64,000 bases of DNA. Origin: Aquiluna sp. (GTDB taxonomy: Bacteria; Actinomycetota; Actinomycetes; Actinomycetales; Microbacteriaceae). Position numbers and translations under genes: made by a program. Below the pieces are notes generated by a model. It did not search any database. It was not told where the DNA came from and saw only the letters and a program-made list of their open reading frames with translations. Positions 28,911 through 34,247 of the stretch are shown piece by piece. The first letter of the stretch is position 1, and the number at the start of each line of letters is the position of its first letter. Location: the NCBI GenBank assembly GCA_021741585.1, contig JAIOXN010000001.1:186001-250000 (forward strand), given 5' to 3'.

Positions 28911-30968
28911 TTAGGCGTCAATGCGCTCGCGGTCAAACGTGTCCGCCGACTCCACGATGAAGTCTCGTCTTGGAGCCACCTCGTTACCCATAAGTAACTC
29001 AAATACCTCATCCGCAGCCTTTGCATCATCAGCCGTGATCCTGCGAAGCATTCGGTTGTTTGGTTGCATTGTGGTTTCGGCCAACTGATCGGCATCCATC
29101 TCACCTAAGCCTTTATAACGCTGAATCGGTTGAGCATATGTTTTGCCCTTGCGCTCTAGGTCTGTGAGCAGCTCGGTCAACTCTGCCTGGGAGTAGGTGT
29201 AAACCGGTTCCTTAGAGCGCCCAGACTGCACCATTACTCTGTGGAGAGGTGGGACTGCGGCATAAACACGTCCCGCTTCGACCAAGGGCCGCATGTATCT
29301 GAAGAAAAGAGTTAGGAGCAACGTCCGAATGTGGGCACCATCGACATCGGCGTCGCTCATCAGAATGATCTTTTCATAGCGCACGGACTCGATATCAAAA
29401 GACCTTCCAGATCCCGCACCAATTACCTGAATAATCGACGCACATTCTGCATTTGAAAGCATGTCGGCAATCGACGCCTTCTGGACATTTAGTATTTTTC
29501 CGCGAATAGGGAGCAGCGCTTGGAACTTGGAGTCACGAGCCAGCTTCGCCGTGCCAAGAGCGCTGTCACCCTCAACAATAAACAGCTCAGAACCAGCTGC
29601 AGAATCAGCTCTGCAATCAACCAACTTGGAAGGCAGTGAGGATGACTCCAAGGCGTTCTTACGGCGCTGAGTATCTTTCAGCGACCTTGCGCTAATGCGA
29701 GCCTTGGCTTCGTTCACCACCTTCTCAAGGAGCTTCTCTACTTCAGCTTTAGTGCCTCTTTGATTGCCTGCAAGGTAATCATCCAGCCAAGAGCCAAATC
29801 CGCTCGAGACAATATTTCTGATCGCAGGTGTTCCAAGGGTCTCCTTGGTTTGACCCTCAAATTGTGGTTCGGGGAAACTTACCGCGATGACAGCAGTAAG
29901 CCCAGCCATGATGTCGTCCCGCTCAATTTTGAGACCGGTTGCCTTGAGCTTGCGGGCATTAGCCTCGATGATTGATCTAAAGGACTTGAGGATTCCCTGC
30001 TCAAAGCCAAGTTGGTGCGAACCACCCTTGGGGGTAGAAATAATGTTGACGTAACTGCGGAATTCGGTTTCAAATCCGGTACCCCAGCGCAGCGCAATGT
30101 CCACCTTGCAAGACCTAGTTACGGCCTTCGAAATCATAGAGCCTGAGTCTTCATCCAATACAGGTACGGTCTCTTCAAACTCTGAAGTGAAGGTTATTCG
30201 CTTGGTCGGAACTACAGCTAAATCATGAGCTAGATGCTCAACAAATTCTCCGATTCCACCTTCAAAGGAGTAGACAACCTCTTCGCCGGTCGCAATCTCC
30301 TTGGTCTTTAACGTGAGCCCCGGAACCAAAAAAGCAGTTTGTCTAAGTCGATTTGCAAGATCAGAAATTGAGAACTGAGCGCTTTGCTCGAAGATTTGGC
30401 GGTCTGGCCAGTAGCGCACCTTGGTACCGGTTACACCTTTACCGACCTTACCCAGCTTGCGCAGCTCACTCTTGTCTAAAAAGGGTGAGAACTTTGCGTC
30501 TGGACCTTCGCCTTCGAAGTTGCCAGGCTCGCCCCTGCGAAAGGACATTCCCCACGTGAATCCATCTCGGTTGACTTCAACGTCAAGCCTCGACGAAAGA
30601 GCGTTAACTACTGATGCACCAACACCATGCAATCCACCTGAAGCGCCATATGATCCGCCTCCGAATTTTCCACCGGCATGCAGCTTTGTGAAAACAACTT
30701 CAACACCAGAAAGCCCGGTTCTAGGTTCGATATCTACTGGAACTCCACGCCCTTGATCAGTAATCTCAGTTGAGCCATCGGGATAAACGGCGACGGAAAT
30801 CTCTTTTCCAAAACCTGCTAGCGCCTCATCAACACAGTTATCAATGATCTCCCAAAGGCAGTGCATTAGACCGCGAGCATCGGTGGAACCTATATACATT
30901 CCAGGGCGTTTGCGAACGGCTTCTAGGCCTTCGAGAACTGATAAGTGTCTTGCTGAGTAGTTTTCCAC
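28911..30968 (-). CDS. parE: DNA topoisomerase IV / gyrase-like subunit B
   Basis: ATPase subunit of a type IIA topoisomerase, 685 residues. Visible are RKRPGMYIGST, the ATP-binding EIIDNCVDEALAG and DQGRGVPVDI, the lid GGKFGGGSYGASGGLHGVGA, and the TOPRIM motifs VEGDSALGTAKLARD and MSDADVDGAHIRTLLL. It has GTG as start, with a TAGTCT box exactly 7 nt upstream and no Shine-Dalgarno site, suggesting a leaderless mRNA. It faces parC and is divergent from the DUF7455 gene. Confidence 0.94.
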   Translation of the reverse strand: MENYSARHLSVLEGLEAVRKRPGMYIGSTDARGLMHCLWEIIDNCVDEALAGFGKEISVAVYPDGSTEITDQGRGVPVDIEPRTGLSGVEVVFTKLHAGGKFGGGSYGASGGLHGVGASVVNALSSRLDVEVNRDGFTWGMSFRRGEPGNFEGEGPDAKFSPFLDKSELRKLGKVGKGVTGTKVRYWPDRQIFEQSAQFSISDLANRLRQTAFLVPGLTLKTKEIATGEEVVYSFEGGIGEFVEHLAHDLAVVPTKRITFTSEFEETVPVLDEDSGSMISKAVTRSCKVDIALRWGTGFETEFRSYVNIISTPKGGSHQLGFEQGILKSFRSIIEANARKLKATGLKIERDDIMAGLTAVIAVSFPEPQFEGQTKETLGTPAIRNIVSSGFGSWLDDYLAGNQRGTKAEVEKLLEKVVNEAKARISARSLKDTQRRKNALESSSLPSKLVDCRADSAAGSELFIVEGDSALGTAKLARDSKFQALLPIRGKILNVQKASIADMLSNAECASIIQVIGAGSGRSFDIESVRYEKIILMSDADVDGAHIRTLLLTLFFRYMRPLVEAGRVYAAVPPLHRVMVQSGRSKEPVYTYSQAELTELLTDLERKGKTYAQPIQRYKGLGEMDADQLAETTMQPNNRMLRRITADDAKAADEVFELLMGNEVAPRRDFIVESADTFDRERIDA

Positions 30969-31079: not shown

Positions 31080-31277
31080 ATGGAAGATATCAAGGAAGTC
31101 TCAAAGCTGGTTGCAAACGATCGTTGCGATGTTTGTGGTGCGCAAGCTTATATTCGCGTTGAGCTAGAAGGTGGCGAGCTGTTGTTTTGCGCCCACCACG
31201 GAAATGCAAATAAAGACAAGCTCAAGCCGCTTGTTGTGAATTGGCACGACCAGTCGGAAGACCTTAGCCAAAAGTAG
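31080..31277 (+). CDS. DUF7455 small putative zinc-binding protein
   Basis: Protein of 65 residues found throughout Actinobacteria near sigma-factor and topoisomerase genes. It has a CDVC motif near residues 16-19 followed by CAHHGN near residues 37-42, a probable metal-binding knuckle of the form CxxC...CxHH. Function unknown. It is divergent from parE and its last 14 bp overlap the 3' end of the GatD-like gene. Confidence 0.85.
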   Translation: MEDIKEVSKLVANDRCDVCGAQAYIRVELEGGELLFCAHHGNANKDKLKPLVVNWHDQSEDLSQK

Positions 31278-31824
31278 TTCTAGCGGCGATCTCCGCAGGA
31301 AAATCTAGCTGCCACTGTTGCAGCTCCCCCTCATAACTCAGCACACTCGCAAGTCTTTTCAGTAATTGTGGGTTCTTGGCTAGAACCGGACCGAAAAGGG
31401 TGGTTCCAAAGAAGTTCCCATTACTGAAAAACCTAGGCTCCACCAACTCCGAATTGTGATAGCCAATGACATCACCAAATTCAGTCGACACCTTCATGAA
31501 CTCAGAGCGACGAGATCCAAATTGAAGCTCGATCCCCAACTGCGGAGCAAGTAGCTCATAGGAGCGACCAATCAGAAGCGTGGCTCTGCCGCTCGCAAGC
31601 CTCGAAGTCAGCAGCTGAACAAGGTCTAATAATTCACCCTCATAGTGATTGATTGCAGCAATCGATGCGTCACCAATCAAGACGAAATCATCTTCCTGCG
31701 CTATCTGATCGACAACTTGGTGTTCAATCTGCTGAGCATTTAGGGAATAACTCAATGCTTCAATGTTGCCCTGATCACCATTGTTGTTGAAATGTTCCGG
31801 CCTGAAACTACTGATCTTGATCAT
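31264..31824 (-). CDS. GatD-like protein lacking the catalytic Cys and His (pseudo-glutaminase)
   Basis: Protein of 186 residues with the scaffold of GatD, the glutaminase half of the MurT/GatD lipid II amidase. The N-terminal NNNGDQGNIEAL aligns with the GatD YSDIGN-type start, TLLIGRSYELLA aligns with the nucleophile segment (TICGGYQFLG in S. aureus) and FFGTTLFGPVLAKNP aligns with GTYLHGPILPKN. The nucleophile cysteine is absent, the catalytic His is Phe, and the protein has no cysteine anywhere. The oxyanion-side GGG is GDA. It is shorter than typical GatD (about 240). The start overlaps the MurT-like stop (ATGA). It is an intact open frame in an operon, so not an ordinary pseudogene. Confidence 0.85.
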   Translation of the reverse strand: MIKISSFRPEHFNNNGDQGNIEALSYSLNAQQIEHQVVDQIAQEDDFVLIGDASIAAINHYEGELLDLVQLLTSRLASGRATLLIGRSYELLAPQLGIELQFGSRRSEFMKVSTEFGDVIGYHNSELVEPRFFSNGNFFGTTLFGPVLAKNPQLLKRLASVLSYEGELQQWQLDFPAEIAARTTFG

Positions 31825-33041
31825 TTGGCAAGTCCTAGATATCTGCGAGTTCTTCGCATAGCGTCGGCAGAAAACATGATCGTTGGGCTGTCACCAGGGA
31901 GCCCCAAAAACTCCTCGACTGACTTATCAATTTCGGGAATTACGGCTCCGATTTCTACGCCCTGGTACTTCAACCTCAAAGCCAGGTCATAAGCATTGAA
32001 GCCTGCGACTATATCTACCCGCGTCATGCCTGTGAAGTCGACCGTCCAGAGCCAGGATGGGTCGTGAATATCTCGACCTGCCATGATCATCAGTGGTGTT
32101 TTTGACTCACCAAGGGCAGAAAGATTCAGCTGGAAGCTAGTTGGGTTTTGAACCAGCATCAGCCGGACCGCTCGCTCTCTGATCTGCGCAAGTTCATCCC
32201 TTGCGAATACCGGAGGTAAGGAAGCGACTATGGACTGGCATTTTGGAATAGCCAAATCCACCAATTGATTAGCTGCCGCAAAAGCAGCAGCCATATTCAA
32301 AGCCTGGGAGAAGCCCCCTCCGGATTGCTCGAATTGAGCGGACCAACCCGAACTTGAAAGCTCGATGCTTGAATCGGAGATGCTCGTAACTTTGCAGTCG
32401 GGACTTAGAGCAAGCTCAGGACCAAAATTTAGGGCATAGACCGGAGCCTTCGGTGATGCTAATAAGGCTTCAGAGAGCCCGAAAGTGAAAGTCTTAGCGT
32501 GATTAGAGAGTGCCTGAGTGAGGTTCTTATCCCCCGCATTCAAGACAATTGATTCTGAGTTATTTGCAATCTCCAGAAGTTTCTCGGCAACAAAGACTGG
32601 ATCGACGAACCTGTCCAGTTGATCCGAGAGGACATTAGTAAATACGGCTAGGCGCGGCCGAAGTTCATTACTTAGAGCAGCTCCGTGACCCTCGTCCCAT
32701 TCAAAGACGACAATGTCTGCATCAATGCGGCCTCGTAGGTCTCCAAATTGAAGAACTGAGGCAAAAAAGCCCTGCCGGATGTTTGCGGTGGAGGGGTTGG
32801 TGAAAACTTTAAGCCCATGTCCGCGCAGTAACTCGACGAGGATCTTTGTCGTTGACGACTTACCCGCCGAGCCCGAGACAACCACCAATCCAAGTGGTGC
32901 GGAGGCAACAGCCTGTTCAAGTAATTTGGGCTGAATAATACGAGCAATTGTGCCAGGAAGAGCAGATCCTCCCCCACGGCGCACCACTCTGAGCGCGCGC
33001 CTTGCTAACTTCCCAAGCAGCATCGCCAGGAAAGTGCGCAT
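31821..33041 (-). CDS. Divergent MurT-like Mur ligase without the zinc ribbon
   Basis: Mur-ligase-fold protein of 406 residues aligning with MurT, the ATP-dependent half of the D-glutamate alpha-amidase. Seen: N-terminal KLARRALRVVRRGG and LPGTIARII, P-loop SGSAGKSSTTK (usual TGTNGKTTTS), FEWDEG, TNVLSDQLDRF (usual TNFFRDQMDRF), LVQNPTSF (usual AKNPAG) and PSWLWTVDF (usual SWIYDADF). The four-cysteine ribbon that normally sits in the central domain is missing; only two unrelated Cys remain. The ATP site looks functional. It starts directly after the rpoD stop and is coupled to the GatD-like gene. Substrate may have changed (see findings). Confidence 0.85.
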   Translation of the reverse strand: MRTFLAMLLGKLARRALRVVRRGGGSALPGTIARIIQPKLLEQAVASAPLGLVVVSGSAGKSSTTKILVELLRGHGLKVFTNPSTANIRQGFFASVLQFGDLRGRIDADIVVFEWDEGHGAALSNELRPRLAVFTNVLSDQLDRFVDPVFVAEKLLEIANNSESIVLNAGDKNLTQALSNHAKTFTFGLSEALLASPKAPVYALNFGPELALSPDCKVTSISDSSIELSSSGWSAQFEQSGGGFSQALNMAAAFAAANQLVDLAIPKCQSIVASLPPVFARDELAQIRERAVRLMLVQNPTSFQLNLSALGESKTPLMIMAGRDIHDPSWLWTVDFTGMTRVDIVAGFNAYDLALRLKYQGVEIGAVIPEIDKSVEEFLGLPGDSPTIMFSADAMRRTRRYLGLAK

Positions 33042-34247
33042 TTAGCTATCCAGGTAGTCGCGCAAAAGCTGTGAACGCGATGGGTGGCGAAGCTTTGACA
33101 TGGTCTTCGACTCAATCTGACGGATTCTCTCGCGTGTTACGCCGAACTTCTCACCGATTTGGTCAAGGGTCATCTGAACCCCATCGCCCAGTCCGAAGCG
33201 TGAGCGGATAACCCCAGCTTCACGTGGGTGAAGAGATTCGAGCACTCTGTCTAGCTCCTGCTGAAGCATGGTGAAACCAACGGCATCGGCTGGAACAACT
33301 GCTTCGGTGTCTTCGATAAGGTCACCGAACTCGCTATCGCCATCTTCACCAAGAGGAGTAGATAGGGAAATTGGCTCGCGGCCATATTTCTGGACCTCAA
33401 CTACCTTTTCAGGAGTCATATCCAATTCAGCAGCCAATTCCTCAGGCGTTGGCTCGCGACCAAGGTCCTGTAGAAGTTGGCGTTGGACTCGAGCAAGCTT
33501 GTTGATTACCTCGACCATGTGGACAGGGATACGAATGGTGCGAGCCTGATCTGCCATCGCACGAGTGATTGCCTGACGAATCCACCAGGTCGCATAGGTC
33601 GAAAACTTATAGCCCTTGGTGTAGTCAAACTTCTCAACAGCACGGATCAATCCGAGGTTTCCCTCTTGAATCAGGTCGAGGAACTGCATGCCACGGCCGG
33701 TGTAGCGCTTGGCCAGGGAAACAACTAGACGAAGGTTCGCTTCTAGAAGGTGAGCCTTTGCGCGCTGACCATCCTTGACGACCCAGTTATAGTCTCTGCG
33801 GTCGGCTGGAGAGAGGGTTTTTTCGGTTGAAAGTTTTTCCTCAGCGAATAGCCCGGCTTCAATGCGCTTTGCAAGCTCAACCTCAAGCTCTGCGTTTAGG
33901 AGCGCAACCTTACCAATCTGCTTTAGATAATCCTTGACCGGGTCGGCGGTTGCTCCTGAAATAGTGAGGTTCTGAACCGGGATGTCATCATCATCATCGG
34001 AAAGAACTAGCACATCGGCTGGCAGCTGGATTGACTCTGTCGCTGGCTCCGCATCATCGGCTTTGTCGGCCGCGTCTGAATCTGATGCTAAATCAACAGC
34101 GGTTGTTGCCTCGGCAACGATGTCGTCCACCGACTCCACGTCAATGTCATCGATGTCTTCTTCGTCGGAATCAACCTCTGATTTGGCAGCCTTGGTGCTC
34201 TTCTTTGTAGAAGAGGCCTTGGCCTTGGCTTTAGATGCAGTAGCGAT
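33042..34247 (-). CDS. rpoD: Primary RNA polymerase sigma factor RpoD/SigA
   Basis: Housekeeping sigma-70 factor. Regions visible: 1.2 [16 protein letters not shown], 2.x [20 protein letters not shown] and [15 protein letters not shown], 3 [14 protein letters not shown], 4.2 [20 protein letters not shown]. The first canonical start in frame is GTG 34137-34139, which lacks a ribosome-binding site. Upstream codons stay open and encode a Lys/Ala/Ser-rich then acidic segment typical of actinobacterial SigA N-termini, back to ATC 34245-34247, which has AGAGG six bases upstream. I extend the gene to that ATC (401 residues); no ATG, GTG or TTG exists between it and the upstream stop. MurT-like follows with no gap. 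Confidence 0.93.

Follow-up and report, generated by a model that had tools for sequence, protein, structure and literature searches.

A MurT/GatD-like pair without glutaminase residues as a candidate ligase for the group B peptidoglycan bridge in Microbacteriaceae

A 64,000-nucleotide stretch of the genome of an Aquiluna species (family Microbacteriaceae; assembly GCA_021741585.1, contig JAIOXN010000001.1, positions 186,001 to 250,000), called the window below, encodes a MurT-like ligase and, in an adjoining gene, a GatD-like subunit that lacks the residues of a glutaminase. We think it likely that these two proteins form an ATP-dependent ligase that joins the bridge amino acid of group B peptidoglycan to the alpha-carboxyl group of D-glutamate. 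Group B walls use this carboxyl group for the bridge, and for half a century this type of cross-linking has stood in the textbooks and served taxonomists as a marker; among the Firmicutes, it is found in Erysipelothrix and Eubacterium.

The MurT/GatD-like pair in the window

The pair and its diagnostic residues lie at the following positions:

31821..33041, minus strand: MurT-like ligase of 406 amino acids with the catalytic residues kept (Pfam and NCBIfam, PDB sequence and fold matches, model)
31264..31824, minus strand: GatD-like subunit of 186 amino acids without glutaminase residues (iterated profile, model, Foldseek)
32847..32873, minus strand: P-loop residues 57-65 of the MurT-like protein, the ATP site (alignment)
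32052..32081, minus strand: AGRDIHDPSW, residues 321-330, the remodelled counterpart of the canonical MurT segment DNAADGRDTSW; Asp327 aligns with S. aureus Asp349
31567..31569, minus strand: Gly86, at the position of the GatD nucleophile Cys94 (alignment)
31393..31395, minus strand: Phe144, at the position of the GatD catalytic His189 (alignment)

The two genes overlap by ATGA. The MurT-like protein scores above the Pfam cut-offs for Mur_ligase_M (41.7 bits; cut-off, 24) and MurT_C (38 bits; cut-off, 25), and its best solved sequence relatives are the MurT proteins of Staphylococcus aureus, Streptococcus pneumoniae, and Streptococcus pyogenes. Its model, with a predicted local distance difference test (pLDDT) score of 89.9, has the MurT proteins of S. 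aureus and S. pyogenes as its nearest folds in Foldseek, followed by that of S. pneumoniae. No Pfam family scored for the GatD-like protein, which an iterated profile links to canonical GatDs and which has S. aureus GatD as the best fold match of its model (pLDDT 91.4; 6.9e-11 to 6h5e_A, with a template modeling [TM] score of 0.79 on the query; 6gs2 and 5n9m were also matched). Scores against the NCBIfam equivalogs lie below the cut-offs for both MurT (92 versus 800 and 93 versus 800 bits) and GatD (14.9 versus 400 and 23.2 versus 450). The source genome (1.386 Mb, 99.76% complete) contains a single MurT_C match, the window protein, and a profile of the MurT clade described below gave one strong match and four others, none of these four being among the matches listed down to 4e-11. 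A second, complete MurT/GatD pair elsewhere in the genome, which by the first-pass annotation of this DNA would have spoken against its idea, was thus not found by either search.

A conserved ligase and a dead glutaminase

According to the available text of the papers on the S. aureus and S. pneumoniae enzymes, after which we name residue positions, Cys94 and His189 of GatD and Asp349 of MurT make up a triad shared between the subunits, and Glu108 and the P-loop serve ATP (PMC6113224, PMC6085368). In the window, Cys94 is replaced by Gly86 and His189 by Phe144, and Asp349 is retained as Asp327. The first-pass annotation had been right to call the GatD dead and to read an ATP-binding P-loop, SGSAGKSSTTK, in its partner. 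It had also described the KNP and DGRD segments as altered; they do read QNP and AGRDIHD, but the catalytic Asp is kept, and loss of the DGRD Asp was rejected because Asp327, the counterpart of D349, does not vary.

This pattern extends far beyond the window. Among 139 MurTs of the same clade (80 titled loci, 58 further loci, and the window), the equivalents of the P-loop Lys, the Mg-binding Glu108, and Asp349 are kept in all 139, and G57, G60, K61, and T65 of the P-loop are invariant in the clade alignment. The nucleophilic Cys is found in none of the 79 titled GatDs, which have Gly (64), Ala (9), Ser (4), or Asn (2) in its place (locus L157 has no GatD and so lies outside the 79), nor in any of the 61 remaining GatDs of the clade, that of the window included; we refer to these as Cys-less pairs. 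His is still present at the His189 position in 45 of the 79 (L157 omitted). Some loci come from the same species, and locus counts are therefore not independent; the duplicates L001, L090, and L091 were removed before the 89-pair table was made. Median ratios of nonsynonymous to synonymous substitution rates (dN/dS) for GatD were determined in eight groups, each with 1 to 21 usable pairs. They lie between 0.06 and 0.29 in seven of these; in Microbacterium, where the starts of the open reading frames (ORFs) may be too long, the median is 0.525. The residue changes are thus conserved across the family and do not reflect decay. Because the catalytic residues of MurT are conserved, the Cys of GatD is absent, and dN/dS of GatD is low, we conclude that the ligase has been kept and its ammonia source has gone.

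That GatD evolves fast and is short in the genus of the window (186 amino acids) might suggest instead that the pair is a remnant without catalytic function or regulates wall synthesis. The ligase residues are invariant in 139 of 139 sequences, however, selection on GatD leaves dN/dS well below 1 in seven of the eight groups, and the pair is retained in a 1.39-Mb genome, which makes this explanation very improbable.

In the first-pass annotation, loss of the four-Cys zinc ribbon had been presented as a change that parallels the death of GatD. The ribbon is indeed absent from the window MurT (no CxxC in the insertion), but the parallel fails: it is equally absent from the intact Microbacteriaceae pairs L002 to L015 and from most of the intact MurTs that were read elsewhere in the order, and its loss was rejected as a marker of new function. 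The available text of PMC6085368 records the ribbon in some Actinobacteria. In one locus (L089, genome G062), the MurT-like gene is matched in two pieces, perhaps because the gene or its assembly contains a frameshift.

Distribution and phylogeny of the Cys-less pairs

Among the 149 Microbacteriaceae genomes of our family sample, 97 carry a MurT of the Cys-less clade (3 of these also have an intact pair), 11 carry an intact pair only, 3 carry an intact zinc-ribbon pair, 8 carry a second Cys-less clade, 3 are odd, and 27 lack MurT. MurT_C alone was rejected as a census tool, having identified 104 of the 149 genomes versus 122 by the clade profile, with 27 genomes containing other Mur ligases only. 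In the second Cys-less clade, here called HI, the Cys position is occupied by His and the His position by Ile or Leu; most of its members (L019 to L026 and L338) retain two CxxC pairs.

Outside Microbacteriaceae, 62 genomes of the order sample have MurT_C, and the Cys is kept in all 61 readable GatDs; the 62nd locus (L350, genome G281) lies at a contig end, with no GatD readable. Within the order sample, the Cys-less pair is therefore confined to Microbacteriaceae. Consistent with this, in a phylum sample of 298 genomes, which yielded scores only and no loci, a Cys-less-type score was reached only in Microbacteriaceae (at least 509 bits, versus at most 421.5 elsewhere). Among the best 80 of 142 relatives, which constitute the titled loci, the titles include Rhodoluna, Pontimonas, Clavibacter, Leifsonia, Herbiconiux, Subtercola, Agreia, Curtobacterium, Frigoribacterium, Frondihabitans, Microbacterium, Agromyces, Cryobacterium, Rathayibacter, and Plantibacter. 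The Cys-less MurTs form one clade apart from canonical MurTs, with a Shimodaira-Hasegawa-like approximate likelihood ratio test (SH-aLRT) support of 100, and the HI MurTs form another (SH-aLRT 99); the intact MurTs of the family intermix with those of other families. The first-pass annotation had proposed comparing the phylogenetic profile of the Cys-less pair with the occurrence of group B walls. The pair is indeed restricted to Microbacteriaceae in the order sample, but it is not the only solution in the family: its genomes without it include 29 with substitutes (21 CofE-like, described below, and 8 HI), 14 with an intact pair only, and 6 in which no module was found.

The sigA-parE slot and its alternative modules

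The window pair sits between two genes that also border the slot in other genomes, as judged by comparison of neighbouring loci:

33042..34139, minus strand: sigA/rpoD-type sigma factor, upstream border of the conserved slot
28911..30968, minus strand: parE-type topoisomerase subunit, downstream border of the conserved slot

In the fetched stretches, sigA was found in 79 of 80 titled and 57 of 58 further Cys-less-pair loci, upstream of the pair, and parE in 74 of the 80 titled loci. In contrast, neither gene was found in the 3.3-kb stretch around any of 17 intact Cys/His pairs, and in the seven intact-pair genomes examined (L208, L210, L219, L225, L226, L228, and L229) sigA is followed by parE. 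HI pairs lie behind sigA in eight of eight cases, and an ATP-grasp gene (PF14397) is present in four of these stretches.

Where MurT is missing, the slot is often occupied by a protein of about 230 amino acids resembling CofE, the F420-0:gamma-glutamyl ligase. Three such proteins matched PF01996 at 5.6e-13 to 6.1e-7, and the score against the equivalog was 30.6, with a cut-off of 180.65. The free-standing CofE-like gene lies behind sigA in 22 of the 24 loci read (once with a transaminase gene between them), the exceptions being G049 and G134. CofE-like genes occur in 24 of the 149 family genomes, namely in 21 of the 27 without MurT, in 2 of the odd ones, and in 1 of the 97 with the Cys-less pair. 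The two modules are thus nearly exclusive (1 of 97 genomes with the Cys-less pair versus 23 of 52 without it; Fisher P = 1e-11, uncorrected for relatedness). Particularly instructive is a group of nine genomes (g78; Microbacterium by SigA and MurT similarity), three of which carry the pair and six the CofE-like gene, with no overlap and with the module sitting in the slot in all nine loci. Because these genomes carry one or the other module in one slot, we conclude that related species swap modules in place.

Beside 19 of the 24 CofE-like genes read (L256, L257, L331, and others) lies an ATP-grasp gene of PF14397, a family annotated as "sugar-transfer associated"; its product may add a second bridge residue. 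At two loci (L027 and L029; genomes G049 and G112), a highly diverged MurT/GatD pair directly adjoins the CofE-like gene.

CofE-like domains outside Microbacteriaceae

Within the order sample, CofE-like proteins are free-standing only in Microbacteriaceae. In 17 genomes of three other families, matches with 43 to 50% identity lie within ORFs of 809 to 1,016 amino acids, in which the domain is part of an AsnB-type protein; ten loci with such long ORFs were read (L319 to L328). The two proteins compared with Pfam both contain Asn_synthase and glutaminase domains, and F420_ligase was matched in one of them, below the cut-off (19.3 versus 25); since that match is sub-cut-off and confined to one protein, the link of the long ORFs to CofE rests on direct similarity. 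Among the N termini of four of the long ORFs, three contain MCGI, with the glutaminase Cys, and one contains MSGI. MurT and the CofE-like proteins were never found together: of 182 genomes outside the family, 62 have MurT and 17 the CofE-like protein (overlap 0, P = 6e-4), and with the family included the numbers are 68 and 24 of 198 genomes (overlap 0, P = 2e-5), both P values being uncorrected for relatedness. A simple reading would be that AsnB-CofE does the work of MurT/GatD outside the family and that both enzymes shed their ammonia source in Microbacteriaceae.

MurT subclades and the bridge amino acid

If the pair joins the bridge amino acid, its phylogeny might be expected to reflect which residue is joined. 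For Curtobacterium, Okibacterium, Mycetocola, and Microcella, we took the bridge residue to be ornithine or lysine (Orn/Lys), and for Leifsonia, Pseudoclavibacter, Rathayibacter, Plantibacter, Amnibacterium, and Galbitalea, we took it to be diaminobutyrate (DAB). The other labels come from the available text of published descriptions. Rhodoluna, which is near the source organism by SigA and MurT, has a B2beta wall with DAB (PMC4156110); and Agreia has L-DAB connected to D-Orn (PMC5945732). DAB is likewise reported for Subtercola, Glaciihabitans, Cryobacterium, Clavibacter, and Agromyces aureus, D- and L-DAB for Herbiconiux, D-Lys for Frigoribacterium, Lys and Orn for Salinibacterium, Orn for Frondihabitans, and D-Orn, L-Lys, or DAB, depending on the strain, for Microbacterium (further literature drawn on: PMC11555704, PMC7033078, PMC10011130, PMC5358740, PMC5217419, and PMC10757982).

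With labels given by genus and not by strain, part of them from published descriptions, and with Microbacterium scored as Orn/Lys although some strains have DAB, the bridge label of 50 isolate rows changes seven times on the sigA+parE tree and once on the tree of Cys-less MurTs. For genera with literature-sourced walls (31 isolates), the numbers are four and one. An earlier, hand-picked set of 34 of the 80 titled rows (at most three per genus), which omitted L100, L113, L136, L168, and L170 among others, gave six changes versus one, with two on the GatD tree; its 18 rows with literature-sourced labels gave two versus one, with one on the GatD tree. Four records (L113, L170, L136, and L123) are probably misnamed, since their titles disagree with their neighbours or with the class of their MurT; one example is "Planococcus sp. 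APC 4015", the locus of which is of the Microbacterium type.

Judged by sequence identities, Agreia is the best example of discordance between MurT and species relationships. Its ParE is nearest to that of Herbiconiux (87%), followed by those of Subtercola and Glaciihabitans (83%), while its MurT is nearest to those of Frondihabitans, Frigoribacterium, and Curtobacterium (61 to 64%) and then Microbacterium (58%), with the DAB genera at 39 to 52%. In these comparisons, the MurT subclades fit the bridge diamino acid better than the species tree fits it. Because the window MurT belongs to the same class as those of Rhodoluna, Agromyces, and Cryobacterium, the bridge residue of the source organism is probably DAB.

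These results bear on two further explanations. In the first, MurT still amidates the alpha-carboxyl group of D-Glu, using free ammonia or that of another glutaminase, and GatD is a mere scaffold. Such an enzyme would account well enough for the retention of Asp349 and the tested ATP-site residues and for selection on GatD, but it is hard to reconcile with walls in which that carboxyl group is used for the bridge, as is typical of group B and as the B2beta type indicates for Rhodoluna. Nor would it explain why MurT subclades track the bridge amino acid, why CofE-like genes replace the module, why racemase genes often flank it (see below), or why two distinct clades, both at this slot, have lost the Cys; we regard it as unlikely. 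In the second, which we rate slightly lower still, the pair is a wall amino acid ligase with another acceptor or step, such as the second bridge residue or tailoring at position 3. The ATP-grasp gene beside the CofE-like gene in 19 of 24 loci and beside HI in 4 of 8 fits this idea, in that some lineages may need two ligases. Canonical MurT, however, acts on exactly the D-Glu alpha-carboxyl group, and Agreia groups by its bridge residue and not by its L-DAB, which is connected to D-Orn in the available text of PMC5945732.

Racemase halves and diaminobutyrate genes

Alanine racemase-like genes lie near the slot in 56 of the 158 loci scanned, and in 54 of these 56 both of two unequal kinds are present, as in the following examples:

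L256:7481-9210, L116:5938-7724, and L094:6042-8110: tandem racemase-half genes (with 51 further loci)

The tandem genes match Ala_racemase_N and Ala_racemase_C. The first kind has the pyridoxal phosphate (PLP)-lysine motif in 52 of 56 cases and the catalytic-tyrosine motif in none; the second has the tyrosine motif in 39 of 54, GRxAM in 50 of 54, and the lysine motif in none. Each active site of Alr is built from residues of both subunits. Because of these complementary motif losses and the sharing of Alr sites between subunits, the split racemase is probably a heterodimer with one working site. No heterodimeric alanine racemase was found in the literature searched. The halves occur with both the pair and the CofE-like modules; present in only 56 of 158 loci, the racemase was rejected as a constant partner. 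The source genome has one Alr match, a complete, housekeeping-type enzyme located elsewhere in a glmS-acpS-alr-tsaE-type cluster.

A diaminobutyrate transaminase gene lies in or beside the slot at L268:5445-6767 (above the NCBIfam cut-off) and L265:6402-7670 (66% identical), and the L133 slot contains one by similarity only. As a marker of DAB walls, this enzyme proved weak, being detected at E<=1e-90 in 28 of the 149 family genomes and absent from the group g10, likely the genus Rhodoluna, although Rhodoluna has DAB.

Proposed mechanism and observations that weigh against it

We propose that MurT of the Cys-less pair binds ATP and phosphorylates the alpha-carboxyl group of the stem-peptide D-Glu, as canonical MurT does, probably at the lipid II stage, and that the amino group of the bridge amino acid would then attack the acyl-phosphate in place of ammonia. 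Depending on the lineage, the incoming amino acid would be D-diaminobutyrate, D-ornithine, D- or L-lysine, or a leading glycine. GatD would no longer hydrolyse glutamine and would serve as a structural subunit, which may shape the pocket or help to bind the incoming amino acid. The HI MurT/GatD pair, or a CofE-like ligase freed from its asparagine synthetase domain, would be a functional substitute in the same slot. In this scheme, the substrate, the amino donor, the timing, and the role of GatD are what we infer, whereas the sequence comparisons show the lost glutaminase residues, the retained ligase residues, the common slot, the near exclusivity of its modules, and a discordance of trees that fits the bridge residue. 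In the available text of PMC6113224, the DNAAD segment is proposed to contact the stem-peptide lysine, beside an account of the amino acid-binding motif of MurE. The remodelled segment beside Asp327 is the counterpart of DNAAD, and its class-wise change would suit another peptide or donor.

Several observations weigh against this proposal. Twenty of the 149 family genomes have neither a Cys-less nor a CofE-like module (an intact pair alone in 11, an intact zinc-ribbon pair alone in 3, and no module found in 6), and group B walls in these organisms would mean that there is another route. Some of the genomes with intact pairs alone may belong to Leucobacter, a tentative assignment; the wall hydrolysate of Leucobacter contains DAB and gamma-aminobutyric acid (PMC4148977). 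Three genomes (G050, G060, and G113) have both an intact and a Cys-less pair, and Naasia lichenicola (L157:3935-5188) has the MurT with a transporter-like frame where GatD is expected; these cases, like the 20 genomes, could mean another route or mixed walls. In G134, the Cys-less pair coexists with a distant CofE-like gene (41% identical) elsewhere in the genome. The racemase pair is not beside the window pair or in the slots of many other genomes, and no diaminobutyrate transaminase was detected at E<=1e-90 in the source genome or in g10. Besides the genus-level assignment of bridge labels described above, the trees were quick ones, and in the MurT tree the branch that separates the labels has a support of 87 and carries a long-branch warning. 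When 10 metagenome assemblies were added, so that every titled row with a labelled genus was included (60 rows), the label changes numbered eight versus three, and those for literature-sourced genera (41 rows) five versus three. By their motifs, L113 (titled Cryobacterium, of the Orn/Lys type) and L170 (titled Salinibacterium, of the DAB type) depart from the rule; both are metagenome assemblies, the titles of which may be wrong.

Even so, the suggestion of the first-pass annotation that the pair ligates an amino acid survives the checks that were run (a single MurT, a Cys-less pair found only in the family, and subclades that track the bridge), although its zinc ribbon argument does not. In a broader scenario, to which we would give even odds, group B walls arose at least three times, on two unrelated folds, by disabling the ammonia supply of glutamine-dependent amidotransferases (MurT with a dead GatD twice, and CofE minus AsnB), with the modules swapped in one sigA-parE cassette that sets the wall type and in which a heterodimeric racemase makes the D-diamino acid.

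Comparison with known systems

The closest known system is the MurT/GatD lipid II isoglutaminyl synthase of S. aureus, S. pneumoniae, and S. pyogenes (6gs2, 6fqb, and 9sq9), with which the window pair shares the two-gene order, the Mur ligase fold, the ATP site, the Mg ligand, Asp349, and the GatD fold. It differs in lacking the nucleophilic Cys and the catalytic His, in its remodelled DNAADGRD and KNP segments, in occupying a slot distinct from that of the intact pairs of the family, and in its proposed amino donor, an amino acid. In the literature searched, which left most subscription papers outside, we found no paper tying MurT to group B peptidoglycan or Microbacteriaceae, and no enzyme is named there for joining the group B bridge amino acid. 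A candidate enzyme with solved relatives makes this bond testable in vitro. If the proposal is correct, wall type could be read from the genome, and an amidotransferase could become an amino acid ligase by loss of the chemistry of one subunit.

Such a ligase would resemble MurE and MurF, which by homology and Foldseek matches perform the same ATP-driven, acyl-phosphate-mediated joining of an amino acid or dipeptide. Unlike them, the MurT of the pair lacks the N-terminal UDP-binding domain, has a GatD-like partner, and would act on the D-Glu alpha-carboxyl group. Fem-type and Aslfm-type ligases add the bridge residues of group A walls, on the side chain of position 3; no FemAB ligase was found in the source genome, and Aslfm-type ligases were not searched for. 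The racemase of the slot differs from Alr in consisting of two halves with complementary motif losses. Finally, CofE makes an amide bond to glutamate, and the slot substitute matches the CofE family far below the equivalog cut-off; our proposal for the MurT/GatD-like pair thus also predicts a function for the free-standing CofE-like proteins and for the AsnB-CofE fusions.

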